Shown in pieces: positions 30,721-44,929 of a stretch of DNA of 64,000 bases. Position 1 is the first letter of the stretch. Each line of letters starts with the position of its first letter. Both the position numbers and the translations under genes were made by a program. Below the pieces are notes generated by a model that saw nothing but the letters and a program-made list of their open reading frames with translations, was not told the origin of the DNA and did not search any database. Source of the DNA: Dyella acidisoli (GTDB lineage: Bacteria > Pseudomonadota > Gammaproteobacteria > Xanthomonadales > Rhodanobacteraceae); assembly GCF_030160295.1 (NCBI RefSeq), contig NZ_BSOB01000046.1:254673-318672 (forward strand), in the 5' to 3' direction.

Positions 30721-30812
30721 CGTCGTTCACTCCACGCAAAGAGGCTGCCCAGCGCCGCCCTTACCTGCCTCTACCCGCGTGAGGGCTGGCCTATTCCGTG
30801 TTTTTGGGGCTT

Positions 30813-30840
30813 GGAATAAAGTCGCCGCAACGCCGGTAGA
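30813..30840 (+). promoter_or_regulatory. Candidate ECF-type promoter of the sigma/anti-sigma operon
   Basis: GGAATAAA at 30813-30820 followed about 15 bp later by GGTAGA resembles ECF sigma promoters with a GGAAT -35 box. It lies 8-35 bp upstream of the ECF sigma ATG, which suggests autoregulation. No classical sigma-70 boxes are obvious. Inference from pattern only. Confidence 0.4.
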
Positions 30841-30847
30841 AGGTCTT

Positions 30848-31411
30848 ATGCCCTCCCACTTCCGCCACTCCGCATCCGCCTCGCACAACGCTGACTTTGA
30901 GGCCTGCGTGCTGCCGTATCTGGACGCCGCCTACAACCTCGCGCGCTGGCTATCGCGCGACGATGCGGACGCCCAAGACGTCACGCAGGAAGCGATGCTG
31001 CGCGCGTTCCGCTACTTCAACAGCTTTCACGGTGGCGACGCTCGCGTATGGCTATTGGCTATCGTGCGCAACACGTTCTATTCGTTGCGCGCGAAAAGTG
31101 CGCCCGACGATGCGCACGAGCTCTTCGATGAAGACGCTCACGCCTTCGTCGACGAACAACCATCGCCGGAAGCACGTGCACTGCTCTCGGTGGACGTCAA
31201 CGCCTTGCAAGTTGCGCTGACCCATCTTCCTCATCCGTTGCGCGAAGCGATCGTGCTGCGCGAACTGGAGGAATGCTCATACAAGGAAATCGCCTCCATC
31301 ACCGGGCAGAAAATCGGCACGGTGATGTCGCGCCTCGCCCGCGCCCGCGAACGGCTGCGGGCGGAACTGTCCAACACTTACACGGAGGCCCGCCGTCATG
31401 ATGTGCGATGA
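30848..31411 (+). CDS. ECF sigma factor
   Basis: A 187-residue sigma-70 family factor lacking regions 1 and 3. Region 2 includes YNLARWLSRDDADAQDVTQEA and LRAFRYFNSFHG; region 4 has HPLREAIVLRELEECSYKEI and GTVMSRLARARERLRAEL. The next gene is a zinc-finger anti-sigma overlapping it by 14 bp. The divergent phosphoesterase-cupredoxin operon is the likely target, as commonly seen around this ECF type. ATG 30848 begins the conserved protein; the frame upstream has no homology. Confidence 0.92.
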   Translation: MPSHFRHSASASHNADFEACVLPYLDAAYNLARWLSRDDADAQDVTQEAMLRAFRYFNSFHGGDARVWLLAIVRNTFYSLRAKSAPDDAHELFDEDAHAFVDEQPSPEARALLSVDVNALQVALTHLPHPLREAIVLRELEECSYKEIASITGQKIGTVMSRLARARERLRAELSNTYTEARRHDVR

Positions 31412-32150
31412 CGCCAGGCTGCTTCTGCACGCCTATCTCGACAACGAACTGGATGCTACGCAAAGCGTAGCCATCGACCGGCACATGCAAGCCTGCCAGG
31501 CCTGCGCGGCGTTGCATGCCGATTACACGCTGCTGCACCAAAGCTTTGAGCGTGCATCGTTATATCGGCGAGCGCCCGATGCGCTGCGCAAGCAATGGTC
31601 TACGGAATCCAGCGTTCCATCTGTCGCCAAGTGGCGCCGCCCTCCTGTCGCGCTGGCGATGGCCGCGGGATTCGTCACTGCACTGCTTATCGCCGCACCG
31701 GCGTGGTGGTACACACTGCACCGCAGTGCAAGCCAGGCCGTCGATGAGGTCGTATCCAGCCATATCCGCTCGATGCAGGCGCAACACCTGATGGATGTGG
31801 CTTCCACCGATCAACACACGGTGAAGCCATGGTTCGCCGGCAAGCTGGATTTCTCGCCGCGCGTGAAAGATCTGACGAGTGAAGGTTTCCCGCTGGTGGG
31901 CGGACGGCTTGATGCGCTTGATGGCCACAGCGTCGCAGCCTTGGTTTACAGGCGGCATCTGCATGTGATCAATCTCTATCAGTGGCCGATATCAGCACCC
32001 ACAGCGGAGACGAAGGTCACGCAGTTGCATGGCTATACGATGATTCAATGGACGGACGAACGCATGCACTTCATTGCGATATCCGACATCAACGAAGGTG
32101 AGCTGCAACAGTTTGTGCAAGCCTTTCGGAACGATGCCGCTCCACTTTAA
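31398..32150 (+). CDS. Membrane anti-sigma factor with zf-HC2 domain
   Basis: A 250-residue protein. The N-terminal anti-sigma domain carries the zinc motif His29-x3-Cys33-x2-Cys36 (HMQACQACA). A single transmembrane helix lies at about 84-106, and a 140-residue periplasmic domain follows (LVGGRLDALDGHSVAALVYRRHLHVINLY), typical of anti-sigma factors in this ECF class. It overlaps the sigma gene and its 3' end overlaps the opposite YkgJ-type gene by 4 bp. Confidence 0.9.
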   Translation: MMCDDARLLLHAYLDNELDATQSVAIDRHMQACQACAALHADYTLLHQSFERASLYRRAPDALRKQWSTESSVPSVAKWRRPPVALAMAAGFVTALLIAAPAWWYTLHRSASQAVDEVVSSHIRSMQAQHLMDVASTDQHTVKPWFAGKLDFSPRVKDLTSEGFPLVGGRLDALDGHSVAALVYRRHLHVINLYQWPISAPTAETKVTQLHGYTMIQWTDERMHFIAISDINEGELQQFVQAFRNDAAPL

Positions 32151-35442: not shown

Positions 35443-35892
35443 CTACAACGCCAGACCGTAATCGCAAAATTCCGTGCCGCGCTTCCATCCGGTCGATTCG
35501 TACAAGGCTTGAGCGGGCGTGTTGTCCAATTCCGTCTGTAGCCACAACCTGGCCGCGCCCAATGCACGTGCATGCTCGGCCGAGGCATCAATCAAAGCCT
35601 TGCCCACACCATGCTTGCGCGCTTCACGCGTTACGAATATATCGTTGAGCAGATAAATCCGCGCCGTGCTCACGGATGAAAACAACGGAAACAGTTGCGT
35701 GAACCCAAGCCCTGTACCGTGCTCGTCGCAGGCAAGCAGAATCACTGACTCGTGATGCACGAAACGCTCGGTAAGAAAAGCACGCGCACGTGCCGGGTCG
35801 GATGTTTGACGATAAAACTGCCGATATCCATCGAACAATGGCACCAACGTATCCAGGTCATAAATATTCGCCTGGCGAACCTCAAAAAGCAT
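35443..35892 (-). CDS. GNAT family N-acetyltransferase
   Basis: A 149-residue acetyltransferase: MLFEVRQANIYDLDTLVPLF, central strand ARIYLLNDIFVTREARKHGVG and a KALIDASAEHARALGAARLWLQT helix, then ALYESTGWKRG. The acetyl-CoA loop is RKHGVGKAL. Start 35892 has GGGAG upstream; earlier in-frame starts lack homology. It lies between rlmH and maf, which are usually adjacent, so it is an insertion into that operon. Target unknown. Confidence 0.88.
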   Translation of the reverse strand: MLFEVRQANIYDLDTLVPLFDGYRQFYRQTSDPARARAFLTERFVHHESVILLACDEHGTGLGFTQLFPLFSSVSTARIYLLNDIFVTREARKHGVGKALIDASAEHARALGAARLWLQTELDNTPAQALYESTGWKRGTEFCDYGLAL

Positions 35893-35933
35893 GACAGCTC
35901 CCGTGACAAGACAGTGACGCTGGCATGCACCGA

Positions 35934-36404
35934 TCAGGCGCGATGGTACGGATGGCCGGCCAGCAAAGTAGTGGCGCGGTAAAGCTGCTCCACCAGCACC
36001 AACCGCACCAGCATATGGGGGAGCGTAAGCGGGCCCAATGACCACTTTTGATCAGCGCGTGCCACCACTTCCGGCGCGTGGCCGTCGGGGCCGCCGATGA
36101 GAAAAGCCAGATCGCGACCGGCCATGCGCCATTTCGCAAGCTGCTCGGCCAGTTCTTCGCTGGACCATGCTTTGCCGCGACCGTCCAGCGCAATCACATG
36201 GATGTCGCGTGGGAGTGCGGCGAGGATGGCGGCGCCTTCGTCGTGGATCGCACGCGCATCGTCGCGGCCCTTGCCGCGTGCACCGGGCTTCAGTTCGATC
36301 AATTCGAGGGGCAAATCATGGGAGAGCCGTTTGCGGTATTCGGCAAACCCTTCTGCAACCCATGCGGGCATGCGTTCGCCAATGGCAATCAAGCGGGCGC
36401 GCAT
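35934..36404 (-). CDS. rlmH: 23S rRNA (pseudouridine1915-N3)-methyltransferase RlmH
   Basis: A 156-residue SPOUT methyltransferase: MRARLIAIGERMPAWVAEGF, FLIGGPDGHAPEVVARADQK, WSLGPLTLPHMLVRLVLVEQ and the C-terminal YRATTLLAGHPYHRA, which is conserved in RlmH. It methylates the pseudouridine in helix 69 of 23S rRNA. It follows rsfS after 11 bp. Confidence 0.97.
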   Translation of the reverse strand: MRARLIAIGERMPAWVAEGFAEYRKRLSHDLPLELIELKPGARGKGRDDARAIHDEGAAILAALPRDIHVIALDGRGKAWSSEELAEQLAKWRMAGRDLAFLIGGPDGHAPEVVARADQKWSLGPLTLPHMLVRLVLVEQLYRATTLLAGHPYHRA

Positions 36405-36415
36405 GCCGGATTTTC

Positions 36416-36805
36416 TTAGCCGGTAGCTAAGGCAGCTTCGCCTTCGGCGTCGCGGTCACCCACAGTCCACAGGCGTTCCAAACCGTAGAACTCGCGGATG
36501 CGCGGCAACATCACGTGCACGATCACATCACCCAGATCCACCAGCACCCACTCCGCTTCCTGCTCGCCTTCGACACCCAGCGGCATCACGCCCGCCTTTT
36601 TGGCGAACTTGACGACTTCGTCGGCGATGGATTTCACGTGGCGGGCCGAGGTGCCGGAAGCAATCACGAGCAGGTCGGCGATAGAGGTTTTGCCGCGCAC
36701 ATCGATTTCTCGGATGTCTTTGGCCTTGAGGTCTTCAAGGGCGGCGATGACGGTCTTGCGCAGGGCGGCCGTATTGACGGCTTTGGTATGACGAATGGTG
36801 GTCAA
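36416..36805 (-). CDS. rsfS: Ribosomal silencing factor RsfS
   Basis: A protein of 129 residues (Iojap family): [40 protein letters not shown] and [20 protein letters not shown]. It binds L14 of the 50S subunit and blocks subunit joining in starvation. No ATG fits; the TTG at 36805 has GAGG 9 nt upstream, while an ATG-initiated frame would add 22 non-conserved residues. It normally follows nadD directly; here 6.5 kb intervene. Confidence 0.93.
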
Positions 36806-37121
36806 GAGTTGGGGCCTCGCAGCGTTTCGGGAGCGCGGGATTGCGCGACTGCAGTATATCCGCCCTGCCATGACGGGACGTCAAGCGCCCCTTATTTACC
36901 CCCGGCGACCCTGGCAACGTCCCTGTGGTCGCCCCGCCAGCACCCGGGATTGGGGGCGGGACGGCAACTCACATCCAGGAAACGCTTTCATAAGCCGACT
37001 TTCGTCTCCTGCGTCACATCTATGGAATGATTCCACGCCCATTCACGGCATCCAAACAGGCCCTTTACGGGGCCCTATCCATATCTACGCCCCTCAATAC
37101 GCGCATTGAGTAGGTGCTGAG
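36806..37121. other. 316-bp intergenic region upstream of shc
   Basis: It separates divergent rsfS and shc. I find no ORF with coding character. It contains GC-rich inverted segments (CCCGGGATTGGGGGCGGG, GGCCCTTTACGGGGCC near 37060) and AT-poor sequence before the shc ATG. The GGTGCTGAG before 37122 may be a weak RBS. No clear promoter boxes. Confidence 0.5.
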
Positions 37122-39128
37122 ATGGATGTTCAGACGCCCACTGCTTCGACCTCTACGCATGACATTCCGCATAAGCAACGGAAAGCGGATGCCGAACGCT
37201 TTTCCCTGCTTGAAAGCGCTATCGAACGTGCTGCTCAAGGCCTGACGGACGCACAGCAGGCAGACGGTCATTGGGTTTACGAACTGGAAAGCGACGCCAG
37301 TAGTACCGCCGAATACATCATGCTGACTCACTACTTGGGCGAACCGCCCAAGCTCGAACAGCATCAAAAAATGGCGCGTTACCTCCATCGCACGCAACTT
37401 ACGGACGGCGGCTGGCCGCTGTATGCCGGTGGTCCGATCAACGTAAGCAGCAGCGTCAAGGCTTATTACGCACTCAAGATCATGGGCGAAACCGAGGATA
37501 CCGAACCCATGCAGCGCGCCCGACGGGCCATTCTTGCGCACGGCGGCGCCGAAGCATCCAACGTATTCACGCGTACGCTGCTCGCCTTGCATGGCATCGT
37601 TCCCTGGCAAGCGGTGCCCATGATGCCGGTCGAGATCATCCAACTGCCTGCATGGTTTCCCGTGCATTTGTCGAAAATGTCGCCTGTAGCGCGCGCCTTC
37701 TTGGTGCCGTTGCTTGTCGTGAATGCCAAACGCCCGCAAGCGAGACATGCGTATCAGGTCGGGATCGATCAACTGTTCAACGTCGCACCGTCTGGCTTGC
37801 ATCTACTGCCGCGCGCACCACACCAAAGCGCTGGCCTGTTTGTGTTCTTCCACGGCCTCGACACCCTGTTGAGAGCAACGGAACGCCTGTTTCCAAAGCA
37901 CGCTCGGCAACGCGCGATCGAAGCCGCCGTGGCATTTGTCGAAGAACACTTAGATAGCAAGGAAGGATTGGGGGGCATCTTTCCCGCCGCAGCCATGGTG
38001 GTCATGATGTACGACGCGCTGGGTTACCCCAAAGATCACCTGCAACGAGCCAAGTCACGCCAGGCAGTGGAACATTACCTGGCAGCGGGCGAGCTCGAAG
38101 CTTATTGTCAGCCCTCCCGATCACCCGTGTGGGATACCGCATTTGCTGCGCATGCCTTGCTTGAAACAGACACGCCTGTTGCCCAGGTGGCGGCGGTGCG
38201 CGGGCTCGATTGGTTGCGTACCCATCAGACTCTGGACGTGCGCGGCGATTGGGCCATACGTCGTCCGCACGTACGGCCGGGCGGCTGGGCGTTTCAATAC
38301 GGCAATGTTCATTACCCTGACGTTGACGATACGGCCGTCGTCGCCGCTGCGATGGATCGCGCGAGTAAATCATCCCACTCCGAAACGTATCGGGAAGCTG
38401 TGGCACGGAGTTTGGAATGGATCGTAGGTATGCAATGCCACAACGGAGGCTGGGGTGCCTTCGAGGCAGAAAACACGCATACGTATCTGGATAGCATTCC
38501 GTTCTCCGATCACGGCGCCATGACCGATCCACCTACGGCCGATGTTTCGTCGCGATGTTTATCCCTGCTCGCTCAGCTTGGCCAATTGCCGGCCGCTAGC
38601 GAGTCAGCCAACCGTGCGATCAATTTCCTGTGGCGGGAGCAACAACCCAATGGAAGTTGGTACGGCCGCTGGGGCGTCAATTACATCTACGGCACCTGGC
38701 TGGCCCTTTGCGCATTGAACGCCGCCGGCGTGGCGCATGAAACTCCACGCCTGCAACGGGCGGTGCAATGGCTGATCGCCATCCAAAACGCAGATGGGGG
38801 TTGGGGCGAAAGCTGCGCCAGCTACGAGTGCGACTACCGCCATTTCTCGCACGCCAACAGCACCGCATCGCAAACGTCCTGGGCACTGCTTGGATTGATG
38901 GCAGCCGGCCAAATCAATCATCCATCTGTTAAGCGCGGTATTTCCTACCTGCTCGCCACGCAATACCAAGACGGTCTGTGGGAGGACGAGCTAGTTACCG
39001 GCACCGGCATTCCGCGCGTGCTTTATCTGCGCTACCACGGCTATCCCAAGTTCTTTCCATTGTGGGCGCTTGCCCGCTATCGAAACTTGCGACGCGCCGG
39101 TACCGCGCACGTCGCAGTGGGCATGTAG
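37122..39128 (+). CDS. shc: Squalene-hopene cyclase
   Basis: A 668-residue class II triterpene cyclase that turns squalene into hopene/hopanol for hopanoid membrane lipids. The protonating motif DVDDTA is at 400-405. Several QW repeats are visible (QTDGGW-like LTDGGWPLY, CHNGGWGAFEAEN, QPNGSWYGRWG, NADGGWGE, YQDGLWEDE). Length fits bacterial SHC. No squalene-synthesis (hpnCDE) or hopanoid-modifying genes are nearby. It sits in the block inserted between nadD and rsfS. Confidence 0.96.
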   Translation: MDVQTPTASTSTHDIPHKQRKADAERFSLLESAIERAAQGLTDAQQADGHWVYELESDASSTAEYIMLTHYLGEPPKLEQHQKMARYLHRTQLTDGGWPLYAGGPINVSSSVKAYYALKIMGETEDTEPMQRARRAILAHGGAEASNVFTRTLLALHGIVPWQAVPMMPVEIIQLPAWFPVHLSKMSPVARAFLVPLLVVNAKRPQARHAYQVGIDQLFNVAPSGLHLLPRAPHQSAGLFVFFHGLDTLLRATERLFPKHARQRAIEAAVAFVEEHLDSKEGLGGIFPAAAMVVMMYDALGYPKDHLQRAKSRQAVEHYLAAGELEAYCQPSRSPVWDTAFAAHALLETDTPVAQVAAVRGLDWLRTHQTLDVRGDWAIRRPHVRPGGWAFQYGNVHYPDVDDTAVVAAAMDRASKSSHSETYREAVARSLEWIVGMQCHNGGWGAFEAENTHTYLDSIPFSDHGAMTDPPTADVSSRCLSLLAQLGQLPAASESANRAINFLWREQQPNGSWYGRWGVNYIYGTWLALCALNAAGVAHETPRLQRAVQWLIAIQNADGGWGESCASYECDYRHFSHANSTASQTSWALLGLMAAGQINHPSVKRGISYLLATQYQDGLWEDELVTGTGIPRVLYLRYHGYPKFFPLWALARYRNLRRAGTAHVAVGM

Positions 39129-39152
39129 CCATGGGCTCAGAAACAAGCCCAG

Positions 39153-39803
39153 CTACGCTTTCGACAACAACCGCCCACCCATCAGCGCATTGGCGCCAAC
39201 CACGATCCCCACTGCCACCGTATGCATCAGCAGATCCGACGCAGTGGCATCGAAGTTGTGGCAGATCTCCAGCAGGCTCGCGGAAGCCGACGCGCTGGCC
39301 AGCCCCACCAGCACAGCCGTCAGCACCGGGCGCAACGGACAGGCTCGCCGGAGCAGCCAGACCATCAGGCCGGACAGCGGAATCGAAAAACTGATGATGA
39401 AGATCAGGCAGTCATTGGCGCCGTGCAGATCCATCACCGGCATACCCGGTATGTGCGCACGCAGGCAGCCCATGCCGCTGGCGCCGATCCAAAGCAACGC
39501 GCTAGGCACGGGCACCCACGCCCAACTGCGTGAACGCCCCGGCACCGCAAGCATGAACGACGCCAGCGCCGCGGTGACCGCGGTAATCACCGCGCCACAC
39601 GCCGCCAGCCCAAGGTCGGGCGCCACGCTCCAGCGATGCAGCATGGTGCCGGCGCCATAACGCACGAACAGCCCCACGGCGATTACTGCCACTATCGCCA
39701 GCCAGCCGAGCGCACGCCGCCACGGCGGCAGCAGGCGCCGCACGGGCGTCAGCTCCGCGCCGAGCGCGTCGATCAAGGCTTCATGGCGTGCTGCGTCGGA
39801 CAT
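39153..39803 (-). CDS. NrsF-like anti-sigma membrane protein (DUF1109)
   Basis: A 216-residue protein with about six transmembrane helices and the DUF1109/NrsF layout: LIDALGAELTPVRRLLPPWRR, then GMGCLRAHIPGM and CPLRPVL and NFDATASDLLMHTVAVGI. NrsF of Caulobacter holds SigF at the membrane through conserved cysteines. Cys at the GMGC and RRACPL loops fits that. It lies 6 bp after the sigma gene. Confidence 0.88.
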   Translation of the reverse strand: MSDAARHEALIDALGAELTPVRRLLPPWRRALGWLAIVAVIAVGLFVRYGAGTMLHRWSVAPDLGLAACGAVITAVTAALASFMLAVPGRSRSWAWVPVPSALLWIGASGMGCLRAHIPGMPVMDLHGANDCLIFIISFSIPLSGLMVWLLRRACPLRPVLTAVLVGLASASASASLLEICHNFDATASDLLMHTVAVGIVVGANALMGGRLLSKA

Positions 39804-39809
39804 GAGGGC

Positions 39810-40475
39810 TCAAGGTTCTCCATGCAGGCGATCGCGCAGCGTCTTCAGCGCGCGATGCAGATTCACTTTCAGCGCACCGGTGTTTCGCCCGGTGCGTTCG
39901 GCGGCCTCAGCGAGCGTGCGCTCCTTCAGACCAAGTTGTTCCACCGCCTCGCGCTGCCCCGGCGGCAGGGTTTCGATCGCCTTGCGTAGACGCTCAGCGT
40001 CCTGATGGCGCTGGGTGCCGGCGCTGGCGTCTTCGCGGTCAGCGTGCGTATCGAAGGCAAATTCGTCGTGCACCTCGCGATGCGCGCGACGCCCGTGGCT
40101 GCGCAGCAAGTCGATAGCACGGCGCGCGGCGATCGCCGACAGCCAAGCGTCGTAGGAGCGCGACGGATCGAACGTGTGCCGCGCGCGATGCACCGTGAGC
40201 AGGGTTTCCTGCACCACATCATCCAGCGCATCCACCGCCACGCCCTGCCGCCGCGCTACCGCGCGGATCAACGCCACCGAATCATTCAGCACGCGCGTGT
40301 AGGCGCGCTGGTCGCCTGCTTGCGCGGCGGCCATCCATGCTGCCCGCTGCCGGTCAGCCTGTTCGCTGGCACTTAAAGATTCGGTCGGCACGGCCTTGTC
40401 GCTATCCAGCCCCCTTGGCAGAGGCTGGCGTAGTAGGACCCACGGGCCGTCAAAGGTCAAGGATGCGTTAGGCAT
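39810..40475 (-). CDS. ECF sigma factor, SigF (NrsF-regulated) type
   Basis: A 221-residue ECF sigma factor: DDVVQETLLTVHRARHTFDP (region 2) and KAIETLPPGQREAVEQLGLK, LAEAAERTGRNTGALKVNLHRAL (region 4). A 40-residue N-terminal extension precedes region 2. The GALKVNLHRAL helix and the partner NrsF place it with SigF-type factors that answer heavy-metal or oxidative stress and often control nearby redox genes; dipZ-msrB, just upstream and divergent, is a plausible target. Confidence 0.9.
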   Translation of the reverse strand: MPNASLTFDGPWVLLRQPLPRGLDSDKAVPTESLSASEQADRQRAAWMAAAQAGDQRAYTRVLNDSVALIRAVARRQGVAVDALDDVVQETLLTVHRARHTFDPSRSYDAWLSAIAARRAIDLLRSHGRRAHREVHDEFAFDTHADREDASAGTQRHQDAERLRKAIETLPPGQREAVEQLGLKERTLAEAAERTGRNTGALKVNLHRALKTLRDRLHGEP

Positions 40476-40524
40476 GCTGAGGCTTGGTGGTTTCTGTGGG
40501 GGTATTCGTTGAGTTCGGGTGTAC

Positions 40525-40680
40525 GGTTACTTGGAGGCGGGAACGGGAAATAGGAAACGGGGAACATGTAACGCGCCGGGCGCGTGAAATGTGCGCGTCG
40601 CAAGCATCGTCGCTTCACAGCGCACGAGGCGTCACACCAAACGTAATCGTTACGTTTCCTATTTTCCGCCCTCAAGTAAC
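40525..40680. repeat. 156-bp inverted-repeat element between sigF and dipZ
   Basis: Arms 40525-40559 and 40652-40680 are inverted copies: GGTTACTTG, GGCGG, GGAAATAGGAAACG on one side, CGTTTCCTATTTTCC then GCC and CAAGTAACC on the other. About 90 bp of GC-rich sequence with smaller inverted repeats (GCGCCGGGCGCG) lies between. It may be a MITE-like element or a long hairpin in the dipZ leader. Confidence 0.7.
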
Positions 40681-40732
40681 CACTCGCCACACCCCAGCGA
40701 ATATCCCACCAAAGCCACCACGCATCCCAACC

Positions 40733-42457
40733 ATGCTCCTCCTTATCCTGGCCTTCCTCGGCGGCGTCCTTACCATCCTTAGCCCATGCATCCTGCCGGT
40801 GCTGCCGTTCGTGTTCGCGCGAGCCGATCGGCCGTTCATGCGCAACGGCCTACCTATGCTGATTGCCATGGCGTTCACCTTTGCATTGGTCGCCACGTTG
40901 GCGGCGGTGGGCGGCGGATGGGCGGTGCACGCGAATCAATATGGCCGCTACATCGCGCTGGTGGTATTGGCGGTACTTGGCCTGACCTTGTTGCTGCCGC
41001 ACTTCGCCGAATGGATCAGCCGTCCTTTCGTGCAACTTGGCAACCGGCTCAGCGAGAAGACCGAGGCGCAGCAGGATTCGCCGTGGTCCGCCGCGGGACT
41101 CGGCATCGCAACCGGTCTGCTGTGGGCGCCGTGCGCCGGGCCGATTCTTGGCCTGTTGCTCACCGGCGCGGCGCTGCAAGGTGCCAGCGCAACAACCAGC
41201 TTGCTGCTGCTCACGTACGCCGCTGGCGCGGCAGCGTCGCTCGCGCTCGCGCTGGTGGTCGGTGGACGTGTCTTCGCGTTGATGAAACGTTCACTGGGCG
41301 CCGGTGAATGGGTGCGCCGAGCGCTGGGTGTGCTGGTGCTGGCCGGCGTGGTGGCCATCGCACTTGGTGTCGACACGGGTTTGCTGACGCGCGTTTCGCT
41401 GGCAAGCACCGGCGGTTTCGAGCAGAAACTGATTGATGCCGTGCGCCCCGCACCGGTTCACGCCGCTCCTGCACCGAAAGCCGGCGTACCGTTGCCAGTG
41501 GAAGGTGAACTACCGTCGCTGGATGGTGCAACGAAGTGGTTCAACAGTGCACCGCTATCGCCCGAAGCACTGCGCGGCAAGGTGGTATTGGTCGATTTCT
41601 GGACGTATTCCTGTATCAACTGCATTCGCTCGCTGCCATACGTGAATGCGTGGGCGCAGAAATATCGCGATCACGGATTGGTGGTGATTGGCGTGCATGC
41701 GCCGGAATTCGCATTCGAGAAAGATCCCGCCAACGTCGCCAAGGCGATCAAGGATTTCAACATCACTTATCCAGTGGCGATGGACAACGACTATGCCATC
41801 TGGAAAGGCTTCAACAACGAATATTGGCCAGCGCATTACTTCATCGATCCGCACGGGCAAATCCGTGCACATCATTTCGGTGAGGGCGATTACACCGGCA
41901 GCGAAGATGTGATCCGTCGCTTGCTGAGCGATGCCGGTTACAAGGATCTACCTGATGGCTACGTGCAACCCGGCGCATCCGGCGCGGAAGCCGCCGGCTC
42001 CGGCGACATGCGCCGCTCACCGGAAACCTACGTGGGTTATGCCCGCAGCGAAGGATTCGCCGGTGGACAGATCGCCCATGATGACAGCTGGCAGTACCGC
42101 GCACCGGACACCCTCACCGCCAATCAATGGGCCTTCAATGGAACGTGGACGGTAAACGCGCAACACGCCACGCTCGACAAATCGAATGGCAGCATTGTCT
42201 ACCGCTTCCGCGGTCGCGATCTGCATCTAGTGCTTGGCCCCAGCGAAGACGGCAAGCCCGTGCGTTTCCGCGTCACGCTCGACGGCAAAGCACCGGGTGA
42301 TGACCACGGCACCGACATCGATGCGGATGGCAACGGCACGATCAACGGACAACGCCTGTACCAGCTGGTGCGCCAAACGCACGGCACAGGCGAGCGCGTC
42401 TTCGAAATCACCTTCCTCGATCCGGACGTACGCGTGTATGCGTTCACGTTCGGCTGA
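40733..42457 (+). CDS. dipZ: DipZ: CcdA-type reductase fused to TlpA-like thioredoxin domain
   Basis: A 574-residue fusion. N-terminal CcdA/DsbD-like membrane part (about 240 residues; LSPCILPVLPFVFA and ATGLLWAPCAGPIL with one Cys each), then a TlpA-like thioredoxin domain with Cys294-Ile-Asn-Cys297 in TYSCINCIRSLPYVNAW, then a C-terminal beta-sandwich (EDGKPVRFRVTLDGKAPGDD, GERVFEITFLDPDVRVYAF). It moves electrons from cytoplasmic thioredoxin to periplasmic partners. The start at 40733 lacks a good Shine-Dalgarno. Downstream msrB is a likely electron recipient. Confidence 0.92.
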   Translation: MLLLILAFLGGVLTILSPCILPVLPFVFARADRPFMRNGLPMLIAMAFTFALVATLAAVGGGWAVHANQYGRYIALVVLAVLGLTLLLPHFAEWISRPFVQLGNRLSEKTEAQQDSPWSAAGLGIATGLLWAPCAGPILGLLLTGAALQGASATTSLLLLTYAAGAAASLALALVVGGRVFALMKRSLGAGEWVRRALGVLVLAGVVAIALGVDTGLLTRVSLASTGGFEQKLIDAVRPAPVHAAPAPKAGVPLPVEGELPSLDGATKWFNSAPLSPEALRGKVVLVDFWTYSCINCIRSLPYVNAWAQKYRDHGLVVIGVHAPEFAFEKDPANVAKAIKDFNITYPVAMDNDYAIWKGFNNEYWPAHYFIDPHGQIRAHHFGEGDYTGSEDVIRRLLSDAGYKDLPDGYVQPGASGAEAAGSGDMRRSPETYVGYARSEGFAGGQIAHDDSWQYRAPDTLTANQWAFNGTWTVNAQHATLDKSNGSIVYRFRGRDLHLVLGPSEDGKPVRFRVTLDGKAPGDDHGTDIDADGNGTINGQRLYQLVRQTHGTGERVFEITFLDPDVRVYAFTFG

Positions 42458-42487
42458 GTGCAGCAAAACAAGCAACAGGAGCAAGGC

Positions 42488-43114
42488 ATGACCTCCACAT
42501 ACGATGACAAAGTTGCGGATCGGCGGCGATTTCTGCTCGCCATGATGGGCGGCGGCGCTGTTGCGGCGCTGGGTGGTGTGGCGATGGTGAGGTTCTTCGC
42601 TGGCAAAGGAGGCAACGCGATGGCGGCCACGCCTGCCGCAACCAACAGGGTAGAAACCCTATTGCTCGAATGCTTTTCCGACGACGACGGTCACCATCTT
42701 GGCCCCTGTGACGTGCGCAAGCTGGTGCTCACCGATGAGCAATGGCATCAGCGCCTTTCCGATGCCGCGTTCAACGTGATGCGTCGCGCGGGAACCGAGA
42801 TGGCGTTCAGTGGTCCGCATGAAAAGCCGCAAAGCAAAGGTCTGTATCGCTGCGCCGGCTGTGACACTGCGTTGTTCGATGCAGCCACACAATTCGACTC
42901 CGGCACAGGCTGGCCGAGTTTCTGGCGGCCGATTGCCAAGAAGAATGTGATCGAGAGTCGCGATACCGCCTATGGAATGATTCGCACGGCGGTGAGCTGT
43001 GCCGGATGCGACAGTCACTTGGGCCACGTGTTTGATGATGGTCCGCCGCCGACTGGGTTGCGTTATTGCATGAATTCAGTGGCGATGCGGTTTGTGGCGT
43101 ATCGGGTGAGTTGA
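42488..43114 (+). CDS. msrB: Exported peptide-methionine (R)-S-oxide reductase MsrB
   Basis: A 208-residue MsrB with an N-terminal Tat-like signal (DRRRFLLAMMGGGAVAALGG). Catalytic Cys194 lies in GLRYCMNSVAMRF. Zinc cysteines Cys122, Cys125, Cys171 and Cys174 (YRCAGCDTALF, VSCAGCDSHLGHVF) are intact, as are GWPSFW and LGHVF. It would repair oxidised methionines in periplasmic proteins, probably reduced by DipZ. GGAG 8 nt before ATG 42488; a GTG at 42458 would add only 10 residues. Confidence 0.94.
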   Translation: MTSTYDDKVADRRRFLLAMMGGGAVAALGGVAMVRFFAGKGGNAMAATPAATNRVETLLLECFSDDDGHHLGPCDVRKLVLTDEQWHQRLSDAAFNVMRRAGTEMAFSGPHEKPQSKGLYRCAGCDTALFDAATQFDSGTGWPSFWRPIAKKNVIESRDTAYGMIRTAVSCAGCDSHLGHVFDDGPPPTGLRYCMNSVAMRFVAYRVS

Positions 43115-43130
43115 TGCTTACCGATATGCT

Positions 43131-43269
43131 GCCCCTCTCCTATCGGGAGAGGGGTTGGGGTGAAGGCACGAACGGAGCGCGTTACCAACACCTTCGCAAG
43201 ACTTCTATGACACGCTTCGTTCGTACCCTCATCCGCCCCTCGGGCACCTTCTCCCGAAGGGAGAGGGAA
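43131..43269. repeat. Inverted pair of CCCTC/GAGGG repeats
   Basis: First copy 43131-43167 (GCCCCTCTCC ... GGGAGAGGGG TTGGGGTGAAGG), second inverted copy 43226-43269 (CCCTCATCCGCCCC ... CTCCCGAAGGGAGAGGGAA). The second copy ends 2 bp before the nadD stop. It lies between convergent msrB and nadD, so it may serve as a shared transcript end. Confidence 0.8.
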
Positions 43270-43271
43270 CA

Positions 43272-43922
43272 TCAAGGCGAGGGTATCGCGCGATACGGCG
43301 CCAACAATTCAGGGTCATCAAACAACCCTGCCGGCAACAAGTAGCGCGGATCACGCCCTGCCGCCAGCAACTCGCGAATGCGCGTAGCGGACACTTCAAA
43401 AGGCGTGACGGAAAGTTCGATCACCTTCCCTGCAGTCTCTGTTCGAATAACAGCAGGATCATCCGTGCGCCGCGCAGCCACGGCGCGTTCCAGTTCCACC
43501 GGAATGCACGCTTCAATGCCGGGGCGGTTGATCACGCCGATGTGCGTGACGTTGAACAACTCGCGCCAGCGGTGCCAACTGCGCAAGCCGGCGAAGGCAT
43601 CCGCGCCGAGCAACAGCACCAATGGCCGCGCACCGAATTCGCGACGTAGCTCTTCCAGCGTGTCGATGGTGTAGGAAGGGCCATTGCGTTCGAGTTCGCG
43701 TGTGTCCATCGCCAAGCGCGATTGCCCACGCAAAGCCGCGCGCAGCATGTCCACGCGCTGTGTGGCGCTGGCGGTAGGTGGTGGACGATGCGGTGGCACG
43801 TTAGCAGGCATCAAACGCACTTCGGCGTCGAGCAGCTCGGAGGCTTCCCACGCCACGCTGAGGTGGCCAATGTGGATCGGGTCAAAGGTGCCGCCGAACA
43901 GGGCTAGCGGTTTCATTTTCAT
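43272..43922 (-). CDS. nadD: Nicotinate-nucleotide adenylyltransferase
   Basis: A 216-residue nucleotidyltransferase making NaAD in NAD synthesis. Motifs: LALFGGTFDPIHIGHLSVAW (HxGH), LLLGADAFAGLRSWHRWREL and VSATRIRELLAAG (the ISSTxIR box). ATG at 43922 overlaps the holA stop (ATGA). It normally precedes rsfS directly; here shc/sigF/dipZ/msrB come between. Confidence 0.96.
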   Translation of the reverse strand: MKMKPLALFGGTFDPIHIGHLSVAWEASELLDAEVRLMPANVPPHRPPPTASATQRVDMLRAALRGQSRLAMDTRELERNGPSYTIDTLEELRREFGARPLVLLLGADAFAGLRSWHRWRELFNVTHIGVINRPGIEACIPVELERAVAARRTDDPAVIRTETAGKVIELSVTPFEVSATRIRELLAAGRDPRYLLPAGLFDDPELLAPYRAIPSP

Positions 43923-44929
43923 ACCAACGCCTGCGCCGCTCTCGGCTCCGCAATCGCTGCAATCAAGCGCTGCGTCTCCAACCACGCATCGCCGGCTTCA
44001 CGACCCTTCGCAATGCGATCGATCCGCGCAGCGCGCGCCAAGCATTGCATCCAATGTTCACGCGGCGCACGACGCAGCGCTTTGCGGAACAGTTGCTCGC
44101 GCGCCGGCCACAAACGCTCCGCACGCGCCTGCGCACCGAAGTCATGGGCGTTGGCCAGTCGCATAGCAAGCTGCAGCTGATTGACCAGCCAGCCCATCAG
44201 TGCAATCAATTCATCACCTTCCGCACGCAGGCCATCGAGAATGCGCAGTGCACGCGCGCCATCGCCACCAAGCGCTGCGTCGGTCAGCTTGAAAGCGTCG
44301 TAACGCGCGCTATCGGCAACTAGGTTTTCCATCTCCGCCGCATCGATCTTGCCCTGCCCGTGCAACACCACGAGCTTGTCGATTTCCTGCGCGGCAGCAA
44401 GCAGATTGCCTTCCACGCGCTCGGCAAGCAAAGCAACCGCATCCGGCACAGCAGTCAGTCCGCGCGAAGCGAGACGCGCGCCGATCCAAGCTTCCCATTC
44501 GTTGGGCCGCGGCGCGTTGAAGACCACCATGGAGCCGGCGCTATCCAGCTGCTTGGTCCATGCGCCTTCATGTTTGTTGCTCCATTCCACCGCGGTGATC
44601 AGCAGCGTCACATCCGGAGGGGGATTGGAACAGAATTCGACGATGGCCTTGGCGCCTTCGACACCTGGTCGCCCAGTGGGTAAGCGCAGATCAAGCAGGC
44701 GACGCGTGGCGAACAACGACATGCCGGCAGCGGAGCGCGCCAGTTCGTCCCAATCGAAATGCGCGCCGACGTCGAGGACCTGGCGCTCGGTGTAACCTAG
44801 CTTGCGTGCTTGCGCGCGCAACGCGTCGGCCGCTTCCAGCACCAGCAGTTCCTCGCCCGCCAGTAGGTAGACGGGACTGAGGCGGTCCGCGGCCAGCGCC
44901 TTCTGCCACTGGGCGTGGTTGAGCGGCAT
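43919..44929 (-). CDS. holA: DNA polymerase III delta subunit
   Basis: A 336-residue clamp-loader subunit. N-terminal RecA-like part: LSPVYLLAGEELLVLEAADALR, then MSLFATRRLLDLRLP, and the C-terminal collar domain (LWPAREQLFRKALRRAP). It opens the beta clamp. ATG 44929 is chosen as the first Met before the conserved AQWQKALAADRLSPVYLL. It sits between lptE (16 bp) and nadD (4-bp overlap). Confidence 0.95.
   Translation of the reverse strand: MPLNHAQWQKALAADRLSPVYLLAGEELLVLEAADALRAQARKLGYTERQVLDVGAHFDWDELARSAAGMSLFATRRLLDLRLPTGRPGVEGAKAIVEFCSNPPPDVTLLITAVEWSNKHEGAWTKQLDSAGSMVVFNAPRPNEWEAWIGARLASRGLTAVPDAVALLAERVEGNLLAAAQEIDKLVVLHGQGKIDAAEMENLVADSARYDAFKLTDAALGGDGARALRILDGLRAEGDELIALMGWLVNQLQLAMRLANAHDFGAQARAERLWPAREQLFRKALRRAPREHWMQCLARAARIDRIAKGREAGDAWLETQRLIAAIAEPRAAQALV

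Follow-up and report, generated by a model that had tools for sequence, protein, structure and literature searches.

The 64-kb stretch of Dyella acidisoli DNA analysed herein (the window) is part of contig C46 of a genome of 5.34 Mb in 64 contigs, and it carries, between the housekeeping genes nadD and rsfS, a 6.5-kb block consisting of shc2, nrsF-sigF and dipZ-msrB on mixed strands. As summarized in Table 1, the positions of the open reading frames (ORFs) and their Pfam and NCBIfam matches were in good agreement with the gene content and strand arrangement described in a first-pass annotation of the sequence, which had taken the whole block for an acquired stress/membrane island. Comparison with related genomes made it very probable that nrsF-sigF and dipZ-msrB form an ancestral, self-regulating stress switch governed by an extracytoplasmic function (ECF) sigma factor of the ECF16 type, which has a predicted regulon of msrA, trx, ccdA and an AraC-type gene and has, on the simplest reading, been inherited after a single entry in an ancestor of much of the family.

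Table 1. Features of the nadD-rsfS interval and its flanks (positions in the window)
Feature	Position	Strand	Basis and remarks
rsfS, ribosome silencing factor, left flank	36416-36838	-	Pfam RsfS 1.3e-33; NCBIfam TIGR00090 1e-36; ORF open to 36871
shc2, second squalene-hopene cyclase	37122-39128	+	TIGR01507 2e-210
nrsF, anti-sigma factor family protein	39153-39803	-	PF06532 (DUF1109) 4.2e-21; adjoins sigF on the same strand
sigF, ECF16-type sigma factor	39810-40475	-	Pfam Sigma70_r2 and Sigma70_r4_2; nrsF neighbour; ECF16-like promoters upstream
Predicted sigma-F promoter of sigF-nrsF	40503-40530	-	-35 GTAACC 40530-40525; -10 CGAATA 40508-40503; spacer 16; exact
Stretch separating the two -35 boxes	40531-40675	.	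Holds GGGAAC-type dispersed palindrome, arms 40544-40559/40653-40668
Predicted sigma-F promoter of dipZ-msrB	40676-40703	+	-35 GTAACC 40676-40681; -10 CGAATA 40698-40703; spacer 16; exact; 29 nt upstream of dipZ ATG
dipZ	40733-42457	+	Pfam DsbD_TM, AhpC-TSA, Thioredoxin_10; PDB 2hyx/5cyy DipZ 4.5e-64
msrB, methionine-(R)-sulfoxide reductase	42458-43114	+	SelR 1.4e-45; TIGR00357 5.5e-49; N-terminal RRRFLLAMMGGG twin-arginine-like stretch (by eye)
CCCTC palindrome pair, dispersed repeat resembling repetitive extragenic palindromes (REP-like)	43133-43267	.	CCCTCTCC...GGGAGAGGG-type; second copy reads CCTTCTCC
nadD, right flank	43272-43985	-	Pfam CTP_transf_like 2.6e-24; NF000839 1e-69
GNAT acetyltransferase, rlmH/maf interval	35443-35895	-	Pfam Acetyltransf_1 8.3e-16 (longer ORF 35446-36045)

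The gap between sigF and dipZ holds a long inverted repeat (40525-40680), which the first-pass annotation had noticed and which proved to be real; the interval given extends from the -35 box GGTTAC at 40525-40530 to the -35 box GTAACC at 40676-40681. The outer arms (40499-40543/40663-40707) were 71% and the inner arms (Table 1) 94% complementary, and the DNA fold of positions 40476-40730 reached -66.1 kcal/mol against a mean of -41.2 kcal/mol for shuffled sequences (z = -7.20; 0/200 shuffles equally good). When the gaps of relatives were aligned by eye, the conserved part consisted of two divergent box pairs of the form GTAACC-N15..18-CGAAT, one directed toward sigF and the other toward dipZ. 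Both pairs were present with at most two mismatches in 33/33 gaps scanned (the locus L001, a duplicate of the window, having been dropped), with exact matches in 27 toward dipZ/msrB and 24 toward sigF, as against no exact site, four sites with one mismatch and 52 with two among 660 shuffled gaps. The predicted promoter lies 28-45 nt from dipZ across the loci; in three loci of one genus that lack dipZ it precedes msrB, and the MsrB alignment begins 4-6 nt further on. Within the 64-kb window, the pattern GTAAC[CT]-N15..17-CGAAT occurs at two sites only, both within this gap. The boxes and their spacing fit the ECF16 promoter consensus (T/C)GTAAC-N17-CGAA (PMC8315932).

The two -35 boxes are 145 nt apart in the window, as compared with 14 nt in G014, the genome with the closest locus (NadD 90% identical and also nearest on the gene tree), and this additional length of approximately 130 nt arises because a GGGAAC-palindrome stretch sits between the boxes. 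The GGGAAC-type repeat gave 38 matches in the genome with up to two mismatches, some of them overlapping in one element, versus one match for the reversed pattern, and several matches formed inverted pairs; runs of GGGGAAC were also seen at the equivalent position in G017 and G042 (L019 and L044), which belong to one other genus. As judged from these alignments, the inverted repeat is a pair of predicted divergent promoters separated by a dispersed GGGAAC palindrome.

Across the genus, a search of 16 genomes for GTAACC-N15..17-CGAATA returned 74 exact sites, versus 11 for the reversed pattern, and 54 of the 74 precede sigF/dipZ (19), msrA (15), trx (14), an AraC-type gene (5) or ccdA (1). The msrA gene, encoding a lipoprotein-type MsrA (PMSR, 4.4e-58; lipobox recognized by eye), has an exact site upstream in 15/16 genomes and a site with one mismatch in the sixteenth (G007), while trx, encoding a secreted thioredoxin-like protein, has an exact site in 14/16 and a site within one mismatch in 16/16, located 28-34 nt before its start. 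In all 16 genomes ccdA (DsbD_TM) is divergent from trx, and GTAAC[CT]-N16-CGAA occurs between the two genes at a distance of 61-76 nt from the trx end of that gap. The AraC-type gene, whose product contains a Cupin_6 domain, is preceded by the site at a distance of 35 nt in each of the five genomes with an exact copy (the window genome, at G000:C25:263218-263245 [L067, L193], and G001, G003, G014 and G015). The best NCBIfam model for this regulator was RclR (E = 2.9e-35), with 122 bits against a cut-off of 400, and by this score it is a relative of RclR and not RclR itself. In addition, single-case sites, which we do not claim as part of the regulon, were followed by a DoxX gene (G004), a second MsrB gene (G015), a gene for a DUF1120 protein (G003) and one for an AhpC/TSA protein (G013, 191 nt away). 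At L172 (G009:C1:3363000-3373000), a second pair of divergent, exact SigF-type promoters is shared by thioredoxin and ccdA-like genes, a smaller copy of the sigF/dipZ layout.

The encoded proteins have conserved Cys residues. Cys113 and Cys132 of NrsF were present in 31/31 aligned sequences; NrsF itself had no PDB relative at E ≤ 1 and no NCBIfam match. DipZ is a single chain composed of a CcdA-like membrane domain, a thioredoxin-like domain with a CxxC motif and a C-terminal Thioredoxin_10 domain, in which Cys19 and Cys134 were found in 30/31 and Cys294 and Cys297 of the thioredoxin-like domain in 31/31 aligned sequences. MsrB, a SelR-domain protein with MsrB relatives in the PDB, retained Cys132, Cys135, Cys181, Cys184 and Cys204 in 34/34 aligned sequences, to which we assign the presumed zinc and catalytic roles. 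The dipZ and msrB genes lie less than 400 nt apart in 30/33 block-bearing loci.

Following the published ECF16 systems of Caulobacter, Brucella and Bradyrhizobium, we propose that the membrane protein NrsF would hold SigF in the resting cell, and that periplasmic oxidants, probably reactive chlorine or oxygen species and possibly thiol-binding metals, would act on the NrsF cysteines and set SigF free. SigF would then read the back-to-back GTAACC-N16-CGAATA promoters, leading to more sigF-nrsF and dipZ-msrB, and would also raise lipoprotein MsrA, the secreted thioredoxin, probably the divergent ccdA product and the RclR-like AraC regulator, upstream of which the sites described above are located. 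Electrons may pass from cytoplasmic thioredoxin to the CcdA-like domain of DipZ and on to its periplasmic thioredoxin domain, as its domains and signals suggest, and CcdA together with the secreted thioredoxin could form a second electron line; both lines would keep MsrB and MsrA reduced for the repair of R- and S-methionine sulfoxide, respectively. The switch thus conceived probably serves the repair of oxidized proteins (methionine sulfoxide) in the periplasm. A more far-reaching version, in which one Dyella ECF16 switch commands a full two-stereoisomer periplasmic repair line (lipoprotein MsrA and Tat-type MsrB) with two parallel electron conduits (DipZ, and CcdA plus thioredoxin) and, in at least some species, a downstream RclR-like regulator that would place two reactive-chlorine-type sensors in series, has in our estimation an even chance of being correct.

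Several observations weigh against these assignments. Among the 74 genus sites, 20 were without an assigned target, to be set beside the 11 control sites; 16 of such sites were looked at (15 fetched, together with the one on C26 of the window genome). The sites on the ccdA side are poorer matches, departing from the full pattern at 0 to 3 positions, and the AraC gene was examined in five genomes only, its domains being confirmed in four of the five. Outside the genus, an exact msrA site was found in only 4/21 family members searched (G028, G034, G035 and G036). Of five others, G024 and G033 differed at one position and G017 and G022 at two, and for G020 no alignment was obtained; a level of two mismatches is also reached by 9/656 ordinary tiles of 220 nt from the window. 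When the box was relaxed to CGAAT, the window genome yielded 11 sites versus six for the reversed control: two in the window, those of trx, msrA and the AraC gene, five within other coding frames (C1, C6, C16, C26 and C53) and one, at C46:372908, preceding a large unrelated-looking ORF. As for the sensing step, Cys181 of NrsF is not universal (25/31 aligned), and the Caulobacter system was induced at most twofold by peroxides, paraquat and diamide (PMC3511200).

The age of the block was assessed at the nadD-rsfS junction. A nadD match was obtained in 97 of 100 genomes searched (the window genome and 99 relatives), and the stretch downstream of nadD was compared in 59 relatives, comprising 15 of the genus and 44 further loci, some of which end at contig edges. 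In 15/15 genus relatives the region downstream of nadD contains sigF, dipZ and msrB; at L004 (G002), 11.7 kb of other genes separate msrB from nadD and the stretch ends inside sigF. Outside the genus, sigF was found downstream of nadD in 17/44 loci, three of which are without dipZ and several of which have extra genes before nadD, while 21 loci were without sigF and had rsfS in view and the other six, with rsfS outside the compared stretch, were not scored. The expectation that nadD normally sits near rsfS was borne out in the family, since rsfS is within 1.8 kb of nadD in 16/21 sigF-free loci with rsfS in view, and within 600 nt in 15 of these. On a locus tree built from NadD, HolA, LptE and LeuS by a quick method (60 rows), the presence and absence of sigF required two changes, versus a mean of 17 after shuffling, for which the simplest reading is that it was gained once at the root of a subclade and lost once in the genus to which G032 and G052 belong, the count alone being blind to gain versus loss. 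The nadD-rsfS neighbourhood was, most simply, split long ago by nrsF-sigF-dipZ-msrB, which would have been inherited since.

The interval between rsfS and nrsF also differs among the lineages. It measures 1.2-2.4 kb in 12/15 measurable sigF-bearing loci outside the genus, and a nitronate monooxygenase-like ORF occurs there in 9/10 inspected loci (G001 of the genus and 8/9 others; absent in L020), confirmed by Pfam in G001 (L003:9981-11048) and recognized by ORF likeness in the others. In 11/13 measured genus relatives the interval is at most 202 nt, which leaves no room for this gene. At the nadD-msrB junction, inspection by eye showed RHS-repeat-like proteins and small neighbours in the 11.7 kb of L004, and 1.6 kb at a guanine-plus-cytosine (GC) content of 0.42 with an AT-rich 452-aa ORF in G003 (L005). 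A second nadD 3' end, 60% identical over residues 166-235, lies at L045 (G043:C2, around 662278-662478), approximately 5 kb downstream of the whole nadD; it looks like integration of an element into the gene end, and no integrase was recognized by eye in that gap.

Unlike its neighbours, shc2 appears to be a newcomer. It is 46% identical to the other shc of the genome (shc1, C25:230971), which occurs in the window genome and all 15 genus relatives at 45-47% identity to shc2. A second shc copy was found in 1/60 relatives searched, namely G014, at the identical position and 81% identical. In a scan of named genomes with two short peptide patterns, the best 80 matches listed were all from Burkholderiaceae by title except Dyella nitratireducens, at 60-66% identity mostly over residues 30-668, while in a sample of the class (22/143 genomes with a match, the window genome included) the best identity besides the window itself was 50-51%. 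In a 52-row tree made by a quick method, from which 62 of the 80 listed named loci were omitted and in which Dyella nitratireducens was represented by G014, shc2 joined the 18 chosen Burkholderiaceae rows with a Shimodaira-Hasegawa-like approximate likelihood ratio test (SH-aLRT) value of 99 (87 for Burkholderiaceae alone), apart from the Dyella shc1 clade. The gene therefore looks borrowed, a later and unrelated acquisition and the sole recently gained gene of the block, its foreign origin being suggested by the tree and the identities and not by its composition (GC 0.589, codon-use z -0.79, neither deviant). On the locus tree, G014 groups with G012 and G002, both without shc2, to the exclusion of the window (support 89), implying either one gain and one loss or two gains. 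Inspection of the flanks of shc2 by eye revealed neither an integrase nor a terminal repeat, and no dedicated edge repeat search was made there beyond the repeat scan of the window. The Shc of P. xenovorans (Burkholderiaceae) has a PNP_UDP_1 protein and an MMPL transporter nearby, presumably HpnG and HpnN of a hopanoid cluster, whereas shc2 of Dyella stands alone. As a SigF target shc2 was rejected, its best upstream match having five mismatches, the same as 239/656 ordinary window tiles.

Two further features had been proposed as traces of insertion. The CCCTC pair at the nadD end (43133-43153 and 43247-43267) is present as described, but palindromes of the form CCCTCTCC...GGGAGAGG gave 291 forward and 284 reverse matches genome-wide versus none for the reversed control; among the matches listed, forward and reverse were mostly the two strands of one site, and among 100 places listed many were paired 97-135 nt apart in REP-like fashion. 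The genome also has four matches to Y1_Tnp, which we take to be the REP-type transposase family. Belonging to a repeat with hundreds of genome copies, the pair need mark no boundary, and it was rejected as an island edge. The GNAT gene does lie between rlmH and maf, yet despite its low GC (0.543) and a codon-use z of -1.49, the lowest among the genes tested, it occupies the same place in 11/15 genus relatives (two unreadable, two not found).

The alternative readings were weighed against these data. Recent acquisition of the entire 6.5-kb block, shc2 included, as a stress/membrane island would account for the closeness of nadD and rsfS in most sigF-free loci, for the divergent second shc copy with Burkholderiaceae relatives and for the unrelated extra genes at the same junction in other genomes, and it might draw on the GC contents of nrsF (0.671) and sigF (0.665), which are about 3.9 and 3.5 standard deviations above that of 28 long ORFs of the window (0.610 ± 0.016). 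The GC contents of dipZ, msrB and shc2, the last slightly low, were within 1.4 standard deviations, and codon use, referred to the same 28 mechanically called ORFs, was ordinary in all five genes (z -0.79 to +0.36); composition does not decide the matter. The patchy presence expected of a recent island was seen for shc2 only, and the gene content of the relatives together with the two changes on the locus tree refuted the island claim for nrsF, sigF, dipZ and msrB while leaving it standing for shc2. No integrase family was found among the proteins of the block in the Pfam and NCBIfam scans, and no tRNA that could serve as an integration site was found in the 64-kb window. We thus give a recent island comprising the whole block next to no credence. 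It is also very improbable that the inverted repeat represents a structured RNA or an active transposable element. Its fold score and the membership of one part in a repeated palindrome family speak for such a role, but both transcription starts are expected downstream of the inner part, which is thus unlikely to act as RNA, the promoter pair is what is conserved in the 33 loci, and the 256-nt stretch had one other, partial match in the genome (E ≤ 0.01); the candidate was rejected on these grounds, including the alignment with relatives.

That the GTAACC/CGAAT boxes are read by another regulator or kept as an operator, SigF not being their reader, deserves consideration because they are tied to SigF by sequence only and because a second ECF sigma factor gene, accompanied by a gene for a putative anti-sigma factor that weakly matches RsrA/anti-sigma models, is located at 30779-32150, 8 kb from sigF. 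We regard this as improbable, given that the boxes agree in sequence and spacing with the published ECF16 consensus (PMC8315932) and flank sigF in 33/33 loci, and that the best match upstream of the second sigma gene has five mismatches. A different question is whether DipZ acts mainly in disulfide isomerisation or cytochrome c maturation, its co-transcription with msrB being incidental. Proteins of the DipZ/CcdA family serve several acceptors, the PDB relatives of DipZ are headed by Mycobacterium DipZ chains and include CcdA at weaker scores, and the three loci of one genus that have msrB without dipZ indicate that MsrB can use another donor there. Such a role seems rather unlikely in view of the close spacing of dipZ and msrB, the promoter type that they have in common with lipoprotein MsrA and the secreted thioredoxin, and the co-regulation of Msr, DsbD-like and thioredoxin genes in Bradyrhizobium (PMC3420878). 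The reading we prefer thus remains a SigF-controlled switch in which DipZ would supply electrons for methionine sulfoxide repair.

By its genes and predicted promoters, this switch is of the known ECF16 methionine sulfoxide reductase (Msr) regulon kind. Among the closest described systems is EcfF-OsrA of Bradyrhizobium japonicum, with which it shares an ECF16 sigma factor and a DUF1109/NrsF anti-sigma factor (six-helix in OsrA) and, as predicted, autoregulation and an Msr regulon; the measured EcfF-OsrA regulon comprises Msr proteins together with a thioredoxin anchored in the membrane and a DsbD-like membrane protein, for which the authors suggested an electron route to periplasmic Msr (PMC3420878). 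The Dyella system differs in its gammaproteobacterial host, in having a single-chain DipZ and a putatively twin-arginine-type MsrB encoded divergently from sigF-nrsF, and in adding a second ccdA/thioredoxin pair, the lipoprotein MsrA and the RclR-like regulator under the same predicted promoter type. With Caulobacter crescentus it shares the SigF-NrsF pair; the conserved NrsF residues C131 and C181 there may correspond, judged by position only, to Cys132 and Cys181 in Dyella, of which the latter is present in 25/31 aligned sequences. The Caulobacter targets include a DoxX protein, and in the genus a DoxX gene of G004 follows a site; Caulobacter SigF differs in targeting YedY and genes of unknown function besides DoxX and in being induced by chromium and cadmium (PMC3511200). 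The HOCl-induced ECF16 pair BcrS-AbcS of Brucella melitensis adjoins a methionine-sulfoxide-repair operon and has the same promoter consensus (PMC8315932), and sigF/nrsF occur with yedYZ and a gene for a methionine-rich peptide in perchlorate-reduction islands (PMC4623255). The ECF16 systems in these four sources (PMC8315932, PMC4623255, PMC3511200 and PMC3420878) are alphaproteobacterial or from (per)chlorate reducers, and several are associated with MsrP-type (YedY) repair.

What seems to be new in Dyella is the placement of DipZ-MsrB beside the sigma factor gene, the duplication of the electron line and the presence of an RclR-like regulator among the predicted targets. No earlier description of the regulon in Xanthomonadales was found in the open-access PMC literature, in a search that hardly covered subscription journals. 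The comparison corrects a tempting misreading of the mixed-strand block as a fresh island. The predicted promoters define a regulon that lends itself to sharp tests in a gammaproteobacterium, Dyella, with dipZ and msrB side by side next to the sigma factor gene, so that the supply of electrons to periplasmic MsrA and MsrB becomes directly testable in this genus.

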